Assembly: GCA_022824265.1 (NCBI GenBank)
Contig: JAJEAG010000029.1
Coordinates: 1-36,201 of the forward strand
Direction: 5' to 3'
DNA: 36,201 nucleotides
Source: Candidatus Poribacteria bacterium
GTDB lineage: Bacteria; Poribacteria; WGA-4E; WGA-3G
How positions within the stretch are numbered: the stretch's first letter is position 1; every line of letters begins with the position of its first letter. Below, piece after piece: positions 7,890-33,850 of the stretch. The notes beneath the pieces were generated by a model. It saw nothing but the letters and a program-made list of their open reading frames with translations. It ran no database searches and was not told where the DNA came from. Position numbers and translations under genes: made by a program.

Positions 7890-8222
7890 TTAATATGGGA
7901 AATTATTGCTGATGCTTCCTATCATAGCCATTCCAGCTATAAAGATGAGAATACCTATCCCAGCACTAACAGCAAAACCTATCGCGGTATAGGTAAGTTG
8001 TATATTCCTACACTTGTTTTTATATGCTTCTATGTAAAACATTGTGTATTCACTTGATTTATCAACCATGCGTGTTGCTGGTGGAGAGGGTTGATAGATA
8101 TATGCGATAATCAGTCCTATTAGTGTTATGAAAAAACCTACAACAATCCATAGTATTTTGGTGACATCTTGTTCAGCATCTTGTTCCCCTTGAACCCGTG
8201 CTTGATGTTGGTCATTATTCAT
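7890..8222 (-). CDS. small two-helix membrane protein, paralogue of the next gene
   Basis: This 110-residue protein has a hydrophilic, Gln/Asp-rich N-terminus (about 1-23), a first transmembrane helix (WIVVGFFITLIGLIIAYIY, about 26-44), a 35-residue loop and a second helix (AIGFAVSAGIGILIFIAGMAMI, about 80-101). The loop carries PPATRxxxKSxEYxxFYxxAYK. A GGAGAA ribosome binding site precedes ATG 8222. It is clearly homologous to the neighbouring 108-residue protein (8467-8793), so the pair arose by tandem duplication. No family is recognised and the function is unknown. The 244-base gap between the copies suggests each may be transcribed separately. Confidence 0.75.
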   Translation of the reverse strand: MNNDQHQARVQGEQDAEQDVTKILWIVVGFFITLIGLIIAYIYQPSPPATRMVDKSSEYTMFYIEAYKNKCRNIQLTYTAIGFAVSAGIGILIFIAGMAMIGSISNNFPY

Positions 8223-8466
8223 TTGTTAGTTCTCCTTAATGTAGGGAATTGTTCTTAACAGAACATATTTATTTTAATTGTGATTCGCACATTAACAAGT
8301 CTATGATATGTTGCCCTGAGTATAATGTGTAATATCTATCTTGTAAGATTTTACCTGAAACGAATGGCAAACGTCAACATTATTTTAGAGTGTAATCGGA
8401 CAAAGTTGTTGGTATCGTTCTTTTTCCATCGTTCTCATCTCTATGTTCTGCGTAGAAAAAGTCATT

Positions 8467-8793
8467 TCACATAAGTCTAAATATTCTGCTGTAAAGAGTT
8501 AACATAAAGATAATGTATATGAGGAATAGTGCTACAGTAATTAAAAAACCGACTAACGCATATTTTACTTGAAGTGACCGAGATTTTGCTTTATACGCAT
8601 CCGTATAAAACGCGGAATATTCTTCTGATTTCTCAAAAAAGCGGGATGCAGGTGGGTCTTGTTGATAGATATAAGCTGCGAGAAGTCCTATTATACTTAA
8701 GGCTAAACCAACAACAAACCAGATTAATTTATTTGTATCGGATTCAGCATCCTGTTCAGCGGTAATTTGTATTTGCTGGTGATTAAGGTTCAT
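8467..8793 (-). CDS. small two-helix membrane protein, tandem paralogue
   Basis: This 108-residue protein has the same plan as the protein at 7890-8222: EQDAESDTNKLIW at the N-terminus, helix one (FVVGLALSIIGLLAAYIYQ), the loop DPPASRFFEKSEEYSAFYTDA, then helix two (ALVGFLITVALFLIYIIFML). By eye about 40-45% of positions are identical, most strongly in EQDAExDxxK, IGLxxAYIYQ, PPAxR and KSxEYxxFYxxAYKxK. Conservation of the loop over the helices hints that the loop is the functional part. GGAGAA lies 7 bases before ATG 8793. The gene begins only 38 bases after the upstream oxidoreductase and may share its transcript. The function is unknown. Confidence 0.75.
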   Translation of the reverse strand: MNLNHQQIQITAEQDAESDTNKLIWFVVGLALSIIGLLAAYIYQQDPPASRFFEKSEEYSAFYTDAYKAKSRSLQVKYALVGFLITVALFLIYIIFMLTLYSRIFRLM

Positions 8794-8831
8794 TCATGTG
8801 TTCTCCTTTCAGTATTTGTCATCTATGAATA

Positions 8832-9881
8832 TTATGGAATCTCAATAGCGCGGCGTTCAGTTGTCGCACGACGTGCGGCATCAATAATTGCGAGATTGTG
8901 ATATGCCTTCTCAGCACTTATGGGTAATGGTTTGTTTTCTGCAAGTGCATTAAATGTGGCAGTAAAATAACCAGCGTGTCCACTGGCATCTTTGAGTCCC
9001 TCTTCATCAAGGTCTGTAAGTTCAATTTGTTTCCATCCTTCCGATCGGGTATATTTTTGTAGCGCGTCGCGCACATTATACCGATGTTTGACACGTAAAG
9101 ACCCGTTTTCTGCATGAACTTCACACCAACCCCAATCTGTCGCAGGAACACTCCATGCGCCAGAGACAGTAGTGATAGTTCCGTTTTCATGCTCACATAA
9201 TAGCATGGCAAAGTCATCTACATCTATGTCAAGAACCATGGTTTTGACACGTGCTTCAACATAACGAACTGGCGATTGTATTAGGGTGCACACAGAATAA
9301 ATTTCATGATAACTTGTGTCACTGATACAACCTCCTCCTTTGTTCTTACTTGCTCGCCAAGCAAATGCTGGGTTCGGATGATTTGCATTAAAATCAGTTG
9401 ATCTTAACCCCATACCTGAACTCCGTCCGAAGTATGTGTTACCAATTTCGGGAAGCTGTGCTATTGCCGTTTGCATCCCCGCAGTATATAGGTAGTTGTG
9501 CGCGACTGTGTAAGGGACATCGTTTTTACGAACAGTCTCCATTATTTTATCTGCTTCTTCAAGGCTTGTTGCCATAGGCTTTTCAGAGATAATCGCCAAT
9601 CCTGCACTTGCTGATTCTATTACCTGTTCTGCGTGAAGTGAATGCGGAGTGGCAATCGTTACTGCGTCTATTTCAGCATTTGCAAGCATCTCCCGATAGT
9701 CAGTATATCGGTTTTGTGTAGGTACATCAAAATCATCTCCAACCTTCTGAAGATTCTCTGTTACAACATCTGCAAGCGCAGTAATCTTGACAGTTTCAAC
9801 AAGTGAATGATAGGCACGCGCATGTGTTTTTTGCACAATACCACCACAGCCAATTAACCCTAAACTTATCGGTTTTTTCAT
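8832..9881 (-). CDS. Gfo/Idh/MocA family NAD(P)-dependent oxidoreductase
   Basis: This 349-residue protein has the usual family length. The N-terminal Rossmann fold shows GLIGCGGIVQKTH (8-20), the acidic ADV at the end of strand two, and SEKPMATS with the conserved Lys101. The C-terminal alpha/beta domain has GGGCISDTSYHE, where Asp188 and His192 fit the usual catalytic pair. These enzymes oxidise or reduce sugars, inositols and related polyols; the substrate cannot be read from the sequence. GGAGAATAAT precedes ATG 9881. It is one of three paralogues in the window (others at 12284 and 21563), and they differ clearly in sequence, so they are not recent copies. Confidence 0.9.
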   Translation of the reverse strand: MKKPISLGLIGCGGIVQKTHARAYHSLVETVKITALADVVTENLQKVGDDFDVPTQNRYTDYREMLANAEIDAVTIATPHSLHAEQVIESASAGLAIISEKPMATSLEEADKIMETVRKNDVPYTVAHNYLYTAGMQTAIAQLPEIGNTYFGRSSGMGLRSTDFNANHPNPAFAWRASKNKGGGCISDTSYHEIYSVCTLIQSPVRYVEARVKTMVLDIDVDDFAMLLCEHENGTITTVSGAWSVPATDWGWCEVHAENGSLRVKHRYNVRDALQKYTRSEGWKQIELTDLDEEGLKDASGHAGYFTATFNALAENKPLPISAEKAYHNLAIIDAARRATTERRAIEIP

Positions 9882-10081
9882 ATTATTCTCCTTTTATAAA
9901 AGTGTATCACATTTTCACACCAAATCAAATTATTTAATTAGAGGCAGTCAATATGGATTTTTCTGTCTGCATTGCCAAATCAAGAAATCAACGTTACTTT
10001 ACCTGTCATGAATTTTGCATAGGTTCTGATGGCGAATTGTTTGTGCTTTTCTGGCAAATACATCGGTATTTTGCTTCTTCT

Positions 10082-10298
10082 AAAAATGCACAAAAAACGG
10101 GTGTTTTTTGCACATTTGTGCGTTTTTATATTTAGGGTTATACCAGTCTGGGACTGGGTTTATAAGGGTTTTTGAAAATTTTGAATTTTTCATTTTTTGT
10201 GCGTTTTTTATTGCTTGGTTATTGTCGGTTTTTAGGTGGATATTTTTTGGGTAACGGGTGTCGGTTTTTGTTGAGAATGTGAGTTGTAGTCGGTTTTT
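10082..10298. repeat. T/G-biased repeat cluster
   Basis: AAAAATGCACAAA (10082-10094) is mirrored with one mismatch by TTTGTGCGTTTTT (10116-10128), and the latter recurs exactly at 10196-10208. GTCGGTTTTT occurs three times, at 10224-10233, 10260-10269 and 10289-10298. From about 10130 to 10300 the plus strand is almost free of C and strongly enriched in T and G. Confidence 0.7.
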
Positions 10299-10422
10299 GT
10301 GTTTCATAGTGGTAGTATAATAACAGGTGTTAAAAGTGGATGGAAGGGGTTCGGGTGTTTGGAACAATATATTTCATGTATGTTTGGAGTAGTTTTCAGA
10401 TTTCAGTGGTCAGTTTTTTGTT

Positions 10423-10616
10423 GTCTGAACCAGGATTTTCAGGATTTCAGGATTACCAGGATAAGAGAAGAGTCTGAACCAGGATTTTCAGGATTTCAGG
10501 ATTTTCAGGATTGGGAGTTGGCGAGTATATATTCCGTTTCAAAGGAAGAAGGGTTATCTTTGACAAAAGAAACTTGGCATATCAAACTCATAATCCTGGA
10601 AATCCTGAAATCCTGA
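10423..10616. repeat. CAGGATTT direct and inverted repeats
   Basis: A perfect 32-base direct repeat starting GTCTGAACCAGGATTTTCAG occupies 10423-10454 and 10472-10503 (period 49), followed by another TTCAGGATT unit to 10512. An inverted copy of the unit (AATCCTGGAAATCCTGAAAT and on) lies at 10592-10616, so the transcript could fold into a long imperfect stem. The peptide it would encode (repeated QDFQDF) is an artefact of the repeat. Confidence 0.8.
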
Positions 10617-10708
10617 CGGACATATAAACTGTTTGTAACAATAATCAACAGAAGGTTCTTAAAAACTAAATAACCCTGGATAATTAATAACACTTGATTT
10701 GGGAAAAC

Positions 10709-10717
10709 TGCTATAAT
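10709..10717 (+). promoter_or_regulatory. extended -10 promoter candidate
   Basis: TGCTATAAT is a perfect extended -10 element (TGnTATAAT), which needs little -35 contact. A start about 7 bases on would leave a leader of roughly 28 bases before the S10 peptidase ATG at 10752. Confidence 0.55.
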
Positions 10718-10751
10718 GGTATAGTTGATACTATATAGAAAGGATTTAAAT

Positions 10752-12248
10752 ATGAGCAAAGAAGAACAAAAAAATTCTGAAGAGAATAAGTCCGAAGATA
10801 AAGAAAAGTCAATTCCTGAGGATAATCTCTCTGTTACACATCATAGTGTAACGATTGATGGAAAAGAGCTTAAGTATACTGCTACTGCAGGCACACTCGT
10901 TTTGAAGGCAGAAGACGAGAAAGAGGGTGAAAAACCGAAAGCCTCTATTTTCTTCGTCGCGTACACCCTTGATGATGTTGATGACGCATCTAAACGTCCG
11001 ATTACATTTTCCTTCAACGGTGGTCCAGGCTCATCATCAGTTTGGTTACATTTAGGAGTATTGGGACCACGTCGTGTTAAACCAGATGATGAAGGCAACC
11101 CTCCTCAACCACCGTACGAATTAACAAATAATGAGTTCTCTATTCTTGATAAGACCGATCTTGTATTTATTGATCCTGTGAGTACCGGATTCAGTAGAGC
11201 AGTACCAGGGGAAGAAGCAAAGCAGTTTCATGGTTTTCAGAAGGATATTGAATCGGTAGGGAATTTTATACTGTTGTATTTGGGACGTTACAAACGGTGG
11301 CGTTCACCTAAATTCCTTATAGGTGAAAGTTATGGCACAACACGCGCATGCGGTTTGTCTGGCTATCTTCAAGACCGAAACGGCACATATCTCAACGGTA
11401 TTATGTTGGTATCTGTAGTACTGAACTTTCAGACAATACGTTTTGCGGTTGGCAACGATTTGCCCTATATTCTCTTTCTACCAACTTATGCTGCCACTGC
11501 TTTCTGGCATAACAAACTAAGTGAATTGGAAACTACTGGAGAAGGTAGTTTTGAAAGAGTTTTAGATGATGTGAGAGAGTTTGCGTTAGGTGATTACACC
11601 GCTGCGTTGATGCAGGGATCATCCTTATCTGACCGCAAGAAGCAAGCGATTGTTAAGAAATTGGCGATGTACACAGGACTATCACCCGATTATATTGAAA
11701 AAACCGATATACGAATTAAAATAAACCGATTCTGTAAGGAGCTGCTACGAGAGGAAGGACGTACGGTCGGTCGTTTTGACAGTCGTTTCACAGGAATTGA
11801 CCGCGATTCAGCAGGTGAGAACTATGAATATGATCCCAGTTCTGCAGTTATTCAAGGTGCTTATACTGCAACGTTAAATGATTATGTTCGGGGTGATCTT
11901 GAATTTGAAAGCGATCTACCTTATGAGATTTTAAGTGGTCGTGTGCATCCATGGGATTACGGTAGCCATCAGAACGAGTATGTGAACGTCGCTGATACAC
12001 TACGTAAGGCAATGACGACAAATCCCTCGTTGAAAGTTTATGTTGCAAATGGTTACTTCGATTTGGCAACACCTTTCTTGGCGACAGAATACACCTTTAC
12101 ACATCTTGGTCTGGACCAATCTCTACAGGACAACATCAGCATGTCTTACTACCGAGCAGGACACATGATGTATATTGATATGGACGAGTTGAAAAAAATG
12201 AAGTCTGATATGGATTCGTACCTTGACGACGTACTTTCCGATATTTAG
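10752..12248 (+). CDS. peptidase S10 (serine carboxypeptidase-like)
   Basis: This 498-residue protein starts at ATG 10752, which has an AAAGGA 8 bases upstream; an in-frame ATG at 10725 lacks one. The serine carboxypeptidase signatures are all visible: [11 protein letters not shown] with the oxyanion-hole glycines, GESYGTTRA with nucleophile Ser193, NGYFDLATP with Asp437, and YRAGHMMY with His471. S10 enzymes remove C-terminal residues at acid pH. The N-terminus is a 45-residue, highly charged Glu/Lys/Ser stretch with no signal peptide, as in other bacterial S10 members, so the site of action is unclear. It is first in a tight series (gaps of 35, 12 and 12 bases) with an oxidoreductase, an OLD-like ATPase and an aldo/keto reductase. 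Confidence 0.9.
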
Positions 12249-12283
12249 TTCATTCCTATCATGGAACAGATCCAAACATTGTT

Positions 12284-13333
12284 ATGAGTTACCAAAGAGA
12301 TTTTGAAAAAAGACTTGACATTGCTGTGGTTGGGGTCGGTTCTCACGGTTATCGAAATGTGTTGCCAACTTTGACATTTCTCCCAATTCGATTGAAAGCA
12401 TTTTGCGATGTTAATCTTGACCGTGCCAAGATAACCGCTGAACAGTATGGAGTTAAGACATGTTATGAGAGCATGGCAGATATGTTTCGGAATGAAGAAT
12501 TAGATGCGATATTTCTTTGTGTTCCTCCGCGTTTACACCCGAAACTGACATGCGAAGCGTTAGATGCTGGTGTTCATGTGTGGTTAGAAAAACCACCGGG
12601 TATGTTTGCCAGTGAAGTTGAGGAGATGATCCGTCACCGCAAAGACCGCGTCGTAGTTGTAGGATTCAAAAAGGCGTTTATGCCTGCTACGCAGAAAATA
12701 ATTGAAATCTTTGACACGGAGGAGTATGGTCCCCTACGAACGTTTTTAGGTGTTTATCCGATGACGATTCCGAGTGATGGTGAACGTATTCTGCGTGAAG
12801 GCGAACATACGAACTGGCTTCAGAATGGTGTTCATCCGCTGTCGCTTCTGTTAGCAGTTGGTGGTAAGGTTTCGGCTGTTACCGTCCACCGAGGAAAACG
12901 CGGTGGCGGGGTATGTATCTTAGAATTTGACAGTGGTGCTCTTGGTAATTTTCATCTGGCAGATGGTGCGCGACATGGACAACCTTCTGAACTCTATCAA
13001 TTCTTCGGTGATGGTTGCCATGCTGAAATTCGGAATGGTACACAAGTTTTGTTGCAACGCGGTATTCAGTTCAATTATAGTGGCAGCTCAAGTTTCGCAC
13101 CAGAGGGTTTTGAAGGTGGTGCAATCGTCTGGGAACCGCAATATAGTCTCGGAACGCTTGAAAATAAGGGGCTTTTCATTCAAGGTTTCTATCAAGAGAT
13201 GCGATATTTCTGTGATTGTATATTGAAGGGACAACCTGCTGAGAAAGGATCGCTTGAGTTTGCATTAGAGGTAATGAAGGTATATGAGGCGGGATTACGT
13301 TCTGAAGGTGATACGATTGAAATTTTGGGATAA
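12284..13333 (+). CDS. Gfo/Idh/MocA family oxidoreductase
   Basis: This 349-residue protein has a Rossmann nucleotide-binding start ([17 protein letters not shown], 12-28), FCDVN at the end of strand two, and WLEKPPG with Lys103. The substrate domain is present, but the usual Asp-x-x-x-His element reads [11 protein letters not shown]: the His is kept, while the residue usually acidic is Asn. This may shift substrate or activity. The role would be NAD(P)-dependent sugar or polyol oxidation. It lies 35 bases after the S10 peptidase and 12 bases before the OLD-like ATPase, so it is probably in the same transcript. It shares only family features with the other two paralogues in the window. Confidence 0.88.
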
Positions 13334-13345
13334 ACCTTTGAGGGA

Positions 13346-15058
13346 ATGATGCTAACCAAATTAATTTGTCGGAATTTCAAAAGATTTGGTGAGGTGGATG
13401 TCGAATTAGGTAATCCTGTCGTATTTATCGGTCCTAATAATTCTGGTAAAACAACTGCATTGCAAGCACTTACTTTGTGGGAAATTGGACTCAAACGATG
13501 GACCGAGAATCGCAAGGGAAATTCCAATTCTGAGAAGCAAACGGGTGTTGTTATCAATCGTCTTCACCTCACTTCTGTCCCCGTACCACATGCGCGCTTG
13601 TTGTGGCGTAACCTGCAAGTTCGTCAGGCACAAAAAAACACACGAATAGATATTATTGTTGAAGGTGTTACAAACGGAAAAGTTTGGAAGTGTGGTCTGG
13701 AATTCGATTATGCTAACCAAGAATCATTTTACTGCCGTCCTCTTAGAACTTCAGATGACAATGGATCGGTAACCCAACAAATGGAAATTCCTGAAGAAGC
13801 AGGTAACATTTCTGTGGTCTATCTTCCTCCAATGTCTGGTCTTGCTTCCAACGAAATACGTTTAGAAGAAGGTACGATAGGTGTTCGTATCGGCGAAGGA
13901 CGTACTGCAGAAGTTTTGCGGAATCTCTGTTATCAGGTGTCCCAAGATAATGAAAAATGGGACAAACTATGTGTCCAAATCAAAGCGTTGTTCGGTGTAG
14001 AACTTGATAGACCAAACTACATTGCAGAACGGGGTGAGATAACGATGAATTATCGGGATGAGTCAGGTATCATTCTTGACCTCTCATCATCTGGTCGTGG
14101 ATTACAACAAATATTATTACTACTCACGTATATGGCTGTACATCCTGGATCTGTCTTACTGCTTGATGAACCTGATGCACATCTTGAAATTCTTCGGCAA
14201 CGACAAATATACCAAATGCTTTCAGAATTAACGCATGAATATGGAAGTCAGATTGTGGTAGCCAGTCATTCCGAAGTGATTCTGAATGAAGCGGTAAAAC
14301 GGGACGTTGTTATTGCTTTTCTTGGAAAACCACATCGGATAGATGACCGTGGCAATCAGTTATTGAAATCGCTTGGAATGATTGGTTCTGAGCAGTATAT
14401 TCAAGCAGAACAACTGGGATGGGTTCTCTATCTTGAAGGTGCTACAGACCTTTCAATATTGCGAGCTTTATCACAAAAGCTTAACCATCCTGTCAAAGCT
14501 GCATTAGAATCACCTTTTGTTCATTATGTCGGCAATCTACCTCGTGAAGCCCGTAAGCATTTTTACGGTTTACGTGAAGCAAAACCAGATTTAGTGGGTT
14601 TCAGTCTATTTGATCGTATTGATACCAAACTACGTGCACGTCCAGAGTTAACAGAGTATTCTTGGCAATGTCGTGAGATTGAAAATTATATTGTTCCCAA
14701 CAAACAAGTCTTAATCAATTGGGTTCTCTATATAGTTAAGGAACAGGAAGGAGAAATCTTTTCTGCCGATGAGTGTATTTCTATAATGGAAGATAAGATA
14801 ACTGAAATAGAAAATGCGCGAGAAACACTTGGACAAGAATCACCTTGGTCAGCAGACACGAAGGTAAGTACTGATTTTCTGGATCCTCTGTTTGCATCAT
14901 TTTTCGATCACTTCAAGTTACCTAACCTGATGCAAAAAACGAATTATCACACTTTAGTGCAATATGTTCAAACAGACCAAATTGATCCTGAAATAACTGA
15001 TGTGCTTGATACTATTTTAGAGGTTGCGAATAAAGCGAAGCCTTTGCGTAATATGTAG
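13346..15058 (+). CDS. OLD-type protein: ABC/SMC-like ATPase with TOPRIM region
   Basis: This 570-residue protein starts like an SMC/RecF-type ATPase (LICRNFKRFGEVDVEL), with Walker A GPNNSGKT at 29-36, signature-like DLSSSGRGLQQILLLL near 250, Walker B LLLDEPDAH near 270-277 and the switch His in VVASHSE. The C-terminal part fits a TOPRIM nuclease domain: LYLEGATDLSILRAL (Glu near 365), then GFSLFDRID (Asp near 422 and 425) and CREIENYI. This architecture is that of OLD-family nucleases, several of which act in phage defence or DNA metabolism. No helicase, toxin or other defence gene flanks it, so it would be a stand-alone member. It lies 12 bases after an oxidoreductase and 12 before an aldo/keto reductase. 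Activity is not proven. Confidence 0.8.
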   Translation: MMLTKLICRNFKRFGEVDVELGNPVVFIGPNNSGKTTALQALTLWEIGLKRWTENRKGNSNSEKQTGVVINRLHLTSVPVPHARLLWRNLQVRQAQKNTRIDIIVEGVTNGKVWKCGLEFDYANQESFYCRPLRTSDDNGSVTQQMEIPEEAGNISVVYLPPMSGLASNEIRLEEGTIGVRIGEGRTAEVLRNLCYQVSQDNEKWDKLCVQIKALFGVELDRPNYIAERGEITMNYRDESGIILDLSSSGRGLQQILLLLTYMAVHPGSVLLLDEPDAHLEILRQRQIYQMLSELTHEYGSQIVVASHSEVILNEAVKRDVVIAFLGKPHRIDDRGNQLLKSLGMIGSEQYIQAEQLGWVLYLEGATDLSILRALSQKLNHPVKAALESPFVHYVGNLPREARKHFYGLREAKPDLVGFSLFDRIDTKLRARPELTEYSWQCREIENYIVPNKQVLINWVLYIVKEQEGEIFSADECISIMEDKITEIENARETLGQESPWSADTKVSTDFLDPLFASFFDHFKLPNLMQKTNYHTLVQYVQTDQIDPEITDVLDTILEVANKAKPLRNM

Positions 15059-25138: not shown

Positions 25139-25858
25139 TTATTTTCCAGTTTTCAATTGTCCCCAAGTTATTGCCAATTTTCCTTGAGGTTGAACAGGAG
25201 CAGGGTTGTCCAGTACCAATTCATCAACATCCTTTTGATGGTCTGAAATCCTTAGCCCATCAACAACACAGTTCGTTGGGAAGTTGGGATCAGGTGGAGA
25301 GGCGTTGTTAATTTCAAAGGTTTCTGCGAACACAGTAGGACCTTTATTAGAGGCGTTTTCCCCTGCCAGTTCTCCATCAAGGTATAACTTCAACCCATCA
25401 GGTCCCCATGTCCCTGCCATGTGATGATGTTCACCTTTCTTCCAGTTTAGTGCCCCACTATCAGCGTTGATCCAACTACCAGCACTTTTTATACGCATAC
25501 GCGCTTTTCCACCATTGTCAAATTGCAGGAAAACCGCATCTGTTCCACGTTTATATGTCATAAATAGAAAAAGTTCACCGGTAACTGTAGCAATATCCAT
25601 GCCCATCGTTACCCATAACTCAACAGTACCTTCTTTCAGATTTACAAACCGATCTTCCACGGGATAGTGAATAACATCGCCAGCATTTTCACTAACAAAT
25701 CCGTTTCCAAATTTACCGGGAGCAAAACTCCCACCATCAACTATTCCACCCTCTTTTTCCACTTCCGCTTTACTTTCAAGCGCAGAAAAGAAGGTCTCTT
25801 TTGCAACAGCAACTGAACAACATAACAATATAATTGTAATGATACTCAATATTTTCAT
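25139..25858 (-). CDS. secreted LamG/concanavalin-like protein with KLAxTWGQLK tail
   Basis: This 239-residue protein has a signal peptide (IITIILLCCSVAVAKE) and a GGAGAC site before ATG 25858. The body is a LamG-type jelly roll: GKFGNGFVS, LKEGTVELWV, MTYKRGTDAVFLQF, then KKGEHHHMAGTWGPDGLKLYLDG and VDGLRISD, the standard order for laminin G-like lectin folds, which bind glycans or act as adhesive modules. After a linker (DNPAPVQPQ) the chain ends GKLAITWGQLKTGK. The same tail ends the unrelated CBM9-like protein at 33047-33850, and the DNA is identical over TGGGGACAATTGAAAA. The tail may be a sorting or anchoring tag. The ligand is unknown. Confidence 0.85.
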   Translation of the reverse strand: MKILSIITIILLCCSVAVAKETFFSALESKAEVEKEGGIVDGGSFAPGKFGNGFVSENAGDVIHYPVEDRFVNLKEGTVELWVTMGMDIATVTGELFLFMTYKRGTDAVFLQFDNGGKARMRIKSAGSWINADSGALNWKKGEHHHMAGTWGPDGLKLYLDGELAGENASNKGPTVFAETFEINNASPPDPNFPTNCVVDGLRISDHQKDVDELVLDNPAPVQPQGKLAITWGQLKTGK

Positions 25859-32822: not shown

Positions 32823-33017
32823 GTGGATATATTTGACTTGATTGTTGTAGGCGCATTAACATATCTCGTTCCAGTATTATTTGGTACAGTGTTTATTGCA
32901 ATAGCAATTGCATGGGGGATCAGATTAGGTGGTTGGTGGCTTATAAACGCCATTGCTAAGGATCACATACTTAATGAATGGCTCAAACAAACTTTCAACG
33001 CATCCAAAGAAGATTAA
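32823..33017 (+). CDS. small membrane protein, 64 residues, unknown
   Basis: The start is GTG 32823, because AAGGAG (32811-32816) stands 6 bases before it; an in-frame TTG at 32802 lies upstream of that site. The protein has one long or two short hydrophobic segments (LIVVGALTYLVPVLFGTVFI, AIAIAWGIRL) followed by a polar tail (AKDHILNEWLKQTFNASKED). It is unrecognised. It is expressed from a consensus promoter and is followed after 29 bases by a secreted CBM9-like protein, probably in one transcript. Confidence 0.7.
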   Translation: MDIFDLIVVGALTYLVPVLFGTVFIAIAIAWGIRLGGWWLINAIAKDHILNEWLKQTFNASKED

Positions 33018-33046: not shown

Positions 33047-33850
33047 ATGTTAAAACGAACTGCTTTTTGTTCCATCTTGTGTGTTCTCCTTGTCGTTTCA
33101 GCAAATGGAGCATTTCTACCTGAAGACAACAGTGCTGATTTTGGACTAAAATATGGTGAATCTATTACCGGCATGCCACCCAGTAAACCGAAGATTGACG
33201 GAAAACTTGACGATTGGAAATATGCTGTCTGGGTCGCATTTGATTCAGAAAAAGAACTACTTCGTGGAAAAGCCGCATGGAAAGGAAAAGATGACTTAAC
33301 GATGACGTGGTCGACAATGTATGATGACAAGAATTTCTATTTTGCGGCAGCAGTATGGGATGATCTCTTTACACCTGCAGCGGTTCCAGCTGACGCGTGG
33401 AAAGGAGACACGATATTCTTATATATTGATTGGGAAAATCTGGGGGCAGGAGTTCCCGCCAGTAAACCCAATTTTGCCCGGATCAATAATAAAGCACATA
33501 TTACGGACTATAGTGGAGTAAAAAATCAGAATCTACCAAATTCAGACATCGCCATCATTCCCACTCCAGAATTGGGTAAAGGTGGTATGATATACGAGGT
33601 AGCTATGCCTTTTGAATGGTTGACAAAAGAGAATATAGAACAAGGTTCGGAAGTAGGTTTTACTCCTGGATATGAAGAAGGAACTGATAACCTTGAAAAG
33701 AAAGCAGAGATAGTATTCATGTGCTGGCACGGTTTAAATCCTGATGATTCAGCGAATCTTGGAACATTAAAGTTTGAGGGACCTCTTGCAGTAAATGCAT
33801 ATAGTAAGTTAGCATCCACATGGGGACAATTGAAAAAAGCATTACATTGA
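33047..33850 (+). CDS. secreted CBM9/DOMON-like protein with KLAxTWGQLK tail
   Basis: This 267-residue protein is read from ATG 33047 behind AGGAG; the longer frame from 32978 would overlap the preceding gene. It has a signal peptide (CSILCVLLVVSANGAF). The body resembles family 9 carbohydrate-binding modules: PKIDGKLDDWKYAVWVAFD, WSTMYDDKNFYFAAAVWDD, WKGDTIFLYIDW and YEVAMPFEWL. CBM9 domains bind sugar ends. The chain closes with SKLASTWGQLKKALH, the same tail as the LamG protein at 25139-25858, though the folds differ. No catalytic domain is attached. It could be a surface sugar-binding or sensing protein. Confidence 0.82.
   Translation: MLKRTAFCSILCVLLVVSANGAFLPEDNSADFGLKYGESITGMPPSKPKIDGKLDDWKYAVWVAFDSEKELLRGKAAWKGKDDLTMTWSTMYDDKNFYFAAAVWDDLFTPAAVPADAWKGDTIFLYIDWENLGAGVPASKPNFARINNKAHITDYSGVKNQNLPNSDIAIIPTPELGKGGMIYEVAMPFEWLTKENIEQGSEVGFTPGYEEGTDNLEKKAEIVFMCWHGLNPDDSANLGTLKFEGPLAVNAYSKLASTWGQLKKALH

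Follow-up and report, generated by a model that had tools for sequence, protein, structure and literature searches.

Many exported proteins of the Poribacteria end in the same short peptide, and this tail looks like an address label, so far undescribed, that would be tied to the type IX secretion system (T9SS). We favour, with moderate confidence, the reading that it is a short, sequence-specific C-terminal sorting or anchoring tag of the phylum, which the Poribacterial T9SS would read; this reading is drawn from comparison of sequences, and the link to the T9SS, based on homology and on co-occurrence, is the most likely one. The Poribacteria are an uncultured phylum of sponge symbionts that are dominant in sponge microbiomes. 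The tail offers a direct means of listing their presumed surface proteins, and may reveal the way in which these symbionts bring proteins to the exterior of their cells. Were the tail alone to prove a T9SS signal, it would also show how little of a canonical T9SS signal domain (CTD) suffices, and would represent a compact secretion tag.

Structure and distribution of the tail

The window, by which we mean the whole stretch of 36,201 nucleotides that was analysed, encodes two exported proteins with the tail. The first, P0002, is a LamG-domain protein of 239 aa on the minus strand (25139..25858). On that strand it comprises an N-terminal signal peptide of approximately 20 residues (MKILSIITIILLCCSVAVAK; 25799..25858), predicted from hydropathy rather than by a dedicated cleavage-site tool, a LamG_3 or concanavalin A-like lectin domain at aa 73-210 (25229..25642; Pfam, 1.8e-12), and the full tail motif VQPQGKLAITWGQLK (25151..25195), after which only TGK and the stop codon follow (25139-25150). 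The second, P0001, is a CBM9-like protein of 267 aa on the plus strand (33047..33850, with an additional in-frame ATG at 32978), and has a signal peptide of about 22 residues, seen in its sequence and hydropathy (33047..33112), a CBM9_1 domain at aa 50-242 (33194..33772; Pfam, 6.9e-9), and the full motif VNAYSKLASTWGQLK (33791..33835), followed by KALH and the stop codon. A T9SS CTD was found in neither protein by Pfam or NCBIfam. When both sequences were re-read, P0002 was seen to end in PAPVQPQGKLAITWGQLKTGK and P0001 in PLAVNAYSKLASTWGQLKKALH, directly before the stop codon (the terminal sequences are also given as VQPQGKLAITWGQLKTGK and VNAYSKLASTWGQLKKALH, respectively), just as the original prediction had stated; its further statements, that the two proteins have different folds and that their genes share 16 identical bases, agree with the Pfam assignments and with the longest DNA identity between the two copies, TGGGGACAATTGAAAA. 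The core of the motif at the DNA level, ACNTGGGGN7AAR, occurs at exactly two sites in the window, and two sites were found in none of 100 shuffles. An AlphaFold model of P0002, built from 12 sequences and of low confidence (mean pLDDT 59), has the tail disordered at residues 215-230 with a short helix at 232-236; this predicted conformation is compatible with a flexible peptide and carries no evidential weight.

Alignment of 76 tails shows that the real motif is longer than the KLAxTWGQLK originally described. In full it reads V-[ED]-[PA]-x-[GD]-K-L-[AT]-T-T-W-G-x-[LI]-K, and is followed by 0-10 residues, most commonly 2-4. Numbered relative to the tryptophan, V(-10) and K(-5) are each present in 74 of the 76 tails and L(-4) in 66, the first of these being part of none of the search patterns; [ED](-9), [PA](-8), [GD](-6), [AT](-3) and T(-2) complete the upstream part, before the T-W-G-x-[LI]-K that closes the motif. 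There is no conserved cysteine in these tails, and no hydrophobic stretch within the 0-10 residues after the last lysine.

The tail occurs far beyond the two proteins in which it was noticed. In the 4.45 Mb genome to which the window belongs, matches to the strict pattern KLAxTWGx[LIVMF]K number 18, against none for the reversed control, and each of them is located 1-5 residues from a stop codon in an open reading frame (ORF) that starts with a signal peptide; a looser pattern gives 50 matches against two in the control, and at least 40 ORFs of this genome are closed by the tail. It is also present in all 85 genomes of the phylum, with reversed-pattern controls at zero everywhere. The number of copies per genome reaches approximately 70 and is usually in the dozens, but falls to a handful or a single copy in certain deep branches. 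A GC-rich form of the pattern, which does not reach AT-rich outgroups, found six matches over 84,980 species, all of them in Candidatus Poribacteria. The tail is therefore a phylum-wide trait, and so far none has been seen outside the Poribacteria or the likely phages of that phylum. Its C-terminal position, which the original prediction had taken as the mark of a tag, holds in essentially all cases: among 434 ORFs from stretches of the window's own genome, every match of at least 11 bits to a tail profile falls within 10 residues of the end bar one, and this single internal match directly precedes a T9SS CTD.

Those likely phages are represented by three IMG/VR contigs (L079, L090 and L080), each with a gene for a tail-bearing protein. 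This protein (L079:12770-13693, L090:5498-6418 and on L080) is approximately 307 aa long, begins with a hydrophobic segment and ends in KLTTTWGEVKK/R; L079 and L090 carry genes for a phage DNA polymerase and a replicative helicase, and L079 also for a clamp loader. The other 11 pattern matches in IMG/VR encode no protein ending with the full motif, and so provide a natural negative control. With Poribacteria as the only other known source of the tail, these contigs point to phages of Poribacteria that would have borrowed a host tag.

Relationship to the T9SS signal and its candidate machinery

One observation behind the proposed T9SS link is that the tail motif also stands, at the same spacing, directly before a canonical CTD on long exported proteins, which we call hybrids (for instance ...TAVEPNDKQHITWGRIKSAEVFQNYPNPFNPETW...), in 75 of the 85 genomes. 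The pattern used to find hybrids comprised only G..K and QN[YF]PNP, and at the positions that it left free the 35 hybrid rows, which include orthologues and so are not all independent, still show V in 74%, E/D in 69%, P in 66%, G/D in 72%, K in 66% and the T at -1 in 71%. The tryptophan of the tail is replaced by leucine in 23 of these 35 pre-CTD copies and retained in six. The combination V.[PA]..K sits where the spacing of the tail would place it in 18 of the 35 rows, and only once over 32 other offsets; it is on this offset test that we rely, since a score test against shuffles is weaker, part of the motif having been kept fixed in the shuffled sequences. Judged by these alignments, the tail is homologous to the stretch that leads into the canonical CTD. 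The original prediction had held that the motif matches no known tag. This stands insofar as NCBIfam contains no model for it and no description was found in the literature on T9SS, sortases or C-terminal motifs of Poribacteria, and it has to be amended insofar as the motif is homologous to the pre-CTD segment.

Most canonical CTD proteins of the window's own genome lack the motif. The same domain can carry either ending, with 41% identity between tail and CTD proteins for NPCBM and about 40% for a cohesin-like domain. In several places (L179, L182, L187 and L197) tail genes and CTD genes are immediate neighbours in the same orientation, and such mixed clusters are suggestive of a link between the tail and the T9SS. 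The loci L144, L146, L202:12739-14813 and L073:1807-2457 illustrate large CTD proteins that combine dockerin with cohesin or NPCBM domains, and tail proteins that have related cohesin-like domains; it is possible that the two kinds of protein form cellulosome-like assemblies at the cell surface.

In many hybrids the motif, directly before the CTD, is followed by K-R-T-[AS]-L-L-Q-N, which resembles the reported preference of PorU for cleavage between T/E/D/N and G/A/S (PMC10202324). This would suit an alternative that we regard as attractive but unlikely, namely that the tail works only once export is complete, as a ligand for surface docking or anchoring, with no dependence on recognition by the T9SS. 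Long proteins would be exported by their CTD, and PorU-type cleavage would leave the motif as their new C-terminus; short proteins would carry it ready-made and reach the outside by another outer-membrane route, and the same receptor or sugar linkage would hold them all. The lectin and carbohydrate-binding folds of the carriers are what might be expected of surface or matrix proteins. However, both the cleavage site in hybrids and the receptor are hypothetical, and a second outer-membrane route, of which none is known, would be needed for the short proteins.

Under the preferred reading, of a tag recognised by the T9SS itself, a tail protein would be exported by the Sec system and fold in the periplasm, where its flexible tail, with the invariant lysine, tryptophan and glycine, would be bound by the outer-membrane machinery of the T9SS, plausibly by one of the PorV-family shuttles at the SprA-type channel; the protein would then be delivered to the cell surface or held there. 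The tail would thereby act as a minimal T9SS-type signal without a beta-sandwich domain. Small signals have a precedent, in that GFP is secreted when it bears no more than the final 22 residues of a particular T9SS signal, for which a lysine close to the end is needed (PMC10202324). Against recognition by the T9SS stands that the tail is too short for the CTD beta-fold and is without motifs B, D and E, while each type A CTD solved to date forms a 7-stranded beta-sandwich, and it is the surface shape of this folded domain that is recognised (PMC10994853). The loss of the tryptophan from most pre-CTD copies, the lack of the motif on most canonical CTD proteins of the window's own genome, and the limits of the SprA-like and PorV-family matches given below also count against it. 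The stronger proposition, that the tail is a minimal T9SS signal in a phylum outside the Bacteroidota, a linear C-terminal peptide of approximately 15-18 residues with no folded domain that serves dozens of small proteins per genome beside canonical CTDs on large ones, and that it evolved from or is shared with the pre-CTD linker, seems to us evenly balanced.

The original prediction had also proposed looking for a co-occurring sortase-like or transport gene, and here the two parts fared differently. Sortase was found in none of the 85 genomes (the positive control was matched in three Gram-positives) and exosortase in three, the window's own genome not among them; these counts rule out sortase and exosortase, respectively, as readers of the tail. 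True exosortases are present in G003, G015 and G017 (loci L099-L102), with E-values down to 1.8e-66. Parts of a T9SS, on the transport side, do co-occur. A SprA-like translocon is encoded in 84 of the 85 genomes as a single ORF of approximately 2,150-2,300 aa; in the window's own genome it lies at G000:C14:34615-41082 (L108:7616-14083) and is approximately 2,155 aa long. TIGR04189 is matched by each of the 13 members that were aligned (4.8e-39 for the window's own genome). Across the genomes, SprA-like matches stay below the NCBI curated cut-off in all but one. A PDB profile search with the alignment of SprA-like members returned nothing, while the single sequence from G006 did match SprA (PDB 6h3i) at 8e-31. 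In the 13 genomes whose neighbourhoods were compared the gene is solitary, and no partner is conserved beside it. In G082 a tail gene (L111:7303-8058) is located 96 bp upstream of the SprA-like gene (8157-14984) on the same strand, and in the window's own genome three paralogous tail genes are found approximately 3.5 kb upstream of it.

Proteins of the PorV family exceed the NF033709 cut-off in all 85 genomes, with 8-24 matches each; the window's own genome has 15, of which only one, at C36, is near known tail genes. A C25 peptidase of the gingipain/PorU type is found in 84 of 85 genomes, a count in which PorU orthologues are not separated from gingipain-like enzymes. Canonical T9SS CTDs are present in all 85 genomes, with about 22 in the window's own, on proteins of median length 787 aa. 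By homology, then, the phylum possesses three hallmarks of a T9SS, a SprA translocon, a PorV-family shuttle and a C25 peptidase. Because all genomes have both the tail and a T9SS, a correlation of presence and absence is impossible inside the phylum. A single-cell genome study of 2014 reported T9SS-type CTDs in Poribacteria, found no structural genes and left the route unknown (PMC3909097). The SprA-like, PorV-family and C25 homologues described here, present in essentially all 85 genomes, are candidates for those missing genes and so bear on the question that the study left open.

Carrier proteins and the unit of selection

The tail is closely associated with signal peptides, a correlation that the original prediction had proposed to test: under a single hydropathy criterion applied throughout, signal peptides are seen in 43 of 45 tail ORFs compared with 98 of the 311 remaining ORFs (Fisher p = 3e-17). 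Tail ORFs have a median length of 256 aa and are mostly of 200-350 aa, with only two above 360 aa. Its appearance on unlike folds extends well past the two proteins of the window, since 106 tail proteins match 22 Pfam families, among them LamG (55 proteins), the DUF1080 fold (11), NPCBM, CBM9, PA14, DUF4960, LDL-receptor, PD40 beta-propellers and others; PF18962 is absent from these families, and part of the 106 have no Pfam match. Across whole carrier proteins sequence conservation outside the tail is minimal. C-terminal position, linkage to signal peptides and occurrence on unlike folds together support the pattern of a sorting or surface-anchoring tag, and it is from this pattern that we infer sorting or anchoring itself. 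Five tandem paralogues of approximately 320 aa in the window's own genome (C4; L187:8886-13966) end in a variant, TTTWAxxK, in which alanine replaces glycine, and lie directly downstream of two hybrid CTD genes. C-terminal targeting to encapsulins or microcompartments was considered and rejected, as its cargo would be cytosolic and tail proteins have signal peptides.

The Sec signal peptide is the sole certain feature of the export route, and a short exposed peptide with lysine and tryptophan could bind any periplasmic partner. The tail might accordingly mark proteins for handling in the periplasm, whether by a chaperone, by a protease or for storage, with no role in surface delivery; we think this improbable, given that the tie of the motif to the CTD segment and the glycan-binding folds of the carriers both point outward. 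Homology to the pre-CTD linker would be expected if the tail were a relic or linker with no active role, left in truncated CTD genes that had spread by duplication and domain shuffling. This is very hard to credit, because a relic would decay, yet V, K, T, W, G and K hardly vary over unrelated folds and in both GC-rich and AT-rich genomes while synonymous sites are free. In the 76 tails the fixed threonine is encoded by ACA (28), ACT (26), ACG (15) and ACC (7), and all four glycine codons are used at the fixed glycine; because third codon positions at fixed residues vary freely, the selected unit is the peptide and not the DNA. A DNA-level repeat or mobile element ending in these genes by chance, which the 16 bases common to the two copies in the window might suggest, is refuted by this synonymous divergence, and the copies are moreover always in frame and at ORF ends, with no matches to the reversed pattern.

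Comparison with known systems

The tail has partial analogues among several C-terminal sorting signals. In GlyGly-CTERM proteins, the substrates of rhombosortase, a glycine-rich motif is followed by a transmembrane helix, whereas the tail has no hydrophobic helix after the motif. MYXO-CTERM, processed by myxosortase, is likewise a phylum-wide C-terminal surface tag on dozens of proteins per genome (PMC11980579), but has an invariant cysteine and a tripartite layout, while the tail has neither cysteine nor hydrophobic segment. The string K-L-[ATP]-x-T-W-G is superficially like the L-P-x-T-G of sortase substrates; the tail differs in its extra tryptophan, in having no membrane helix and in the absence of sortase from all 85 genomes. 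PEP-CTERM proteins and exosortase provide another parallel, since there too numerous exported proteins of a genome have homologous C-termini while being otherwise dissimilar. They are distinguished by a PEP motif, a transmembrane helix and a basic end; the tail has no PEP motif or helix, and exosortase is limited to 3/85 genomes and absent from the window's own.

Closer in kind are the short CTDs of Prevotella intermedia, which are also shortened T9SS signals on dozens of proteins in one genome, but are 40-55 residues long, retain motifs B, D and E, and form three beta-strands (PMC11969387), none of which applies to the Poribacterial tail. With the type A CTD of the Bacteroidota (PF18962, TIGR04183) the tail shares its occurrence on Sec-exported proteins, its place at the extreme C-terminus and a basic residue near the end; in Poribacteria, moreover, a homologous motif directly precedes that CTD, and SprA-like, PorV-family and C25 proteins co-occur. 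The type A CTD, however, is an Ig-like domain of 70-90 residues with motifs A-E, while the tail has approximately 18 residues, no beta-sandwich and no motif B, D or E, and CTD proteins here have a median of 787 aa compared with 256 aa for tail proteins. Because the defining folded domain of 70-90 residues with motifs A-E is absent, we do not class the tail as a T9SS CTD, but it may still work like one.
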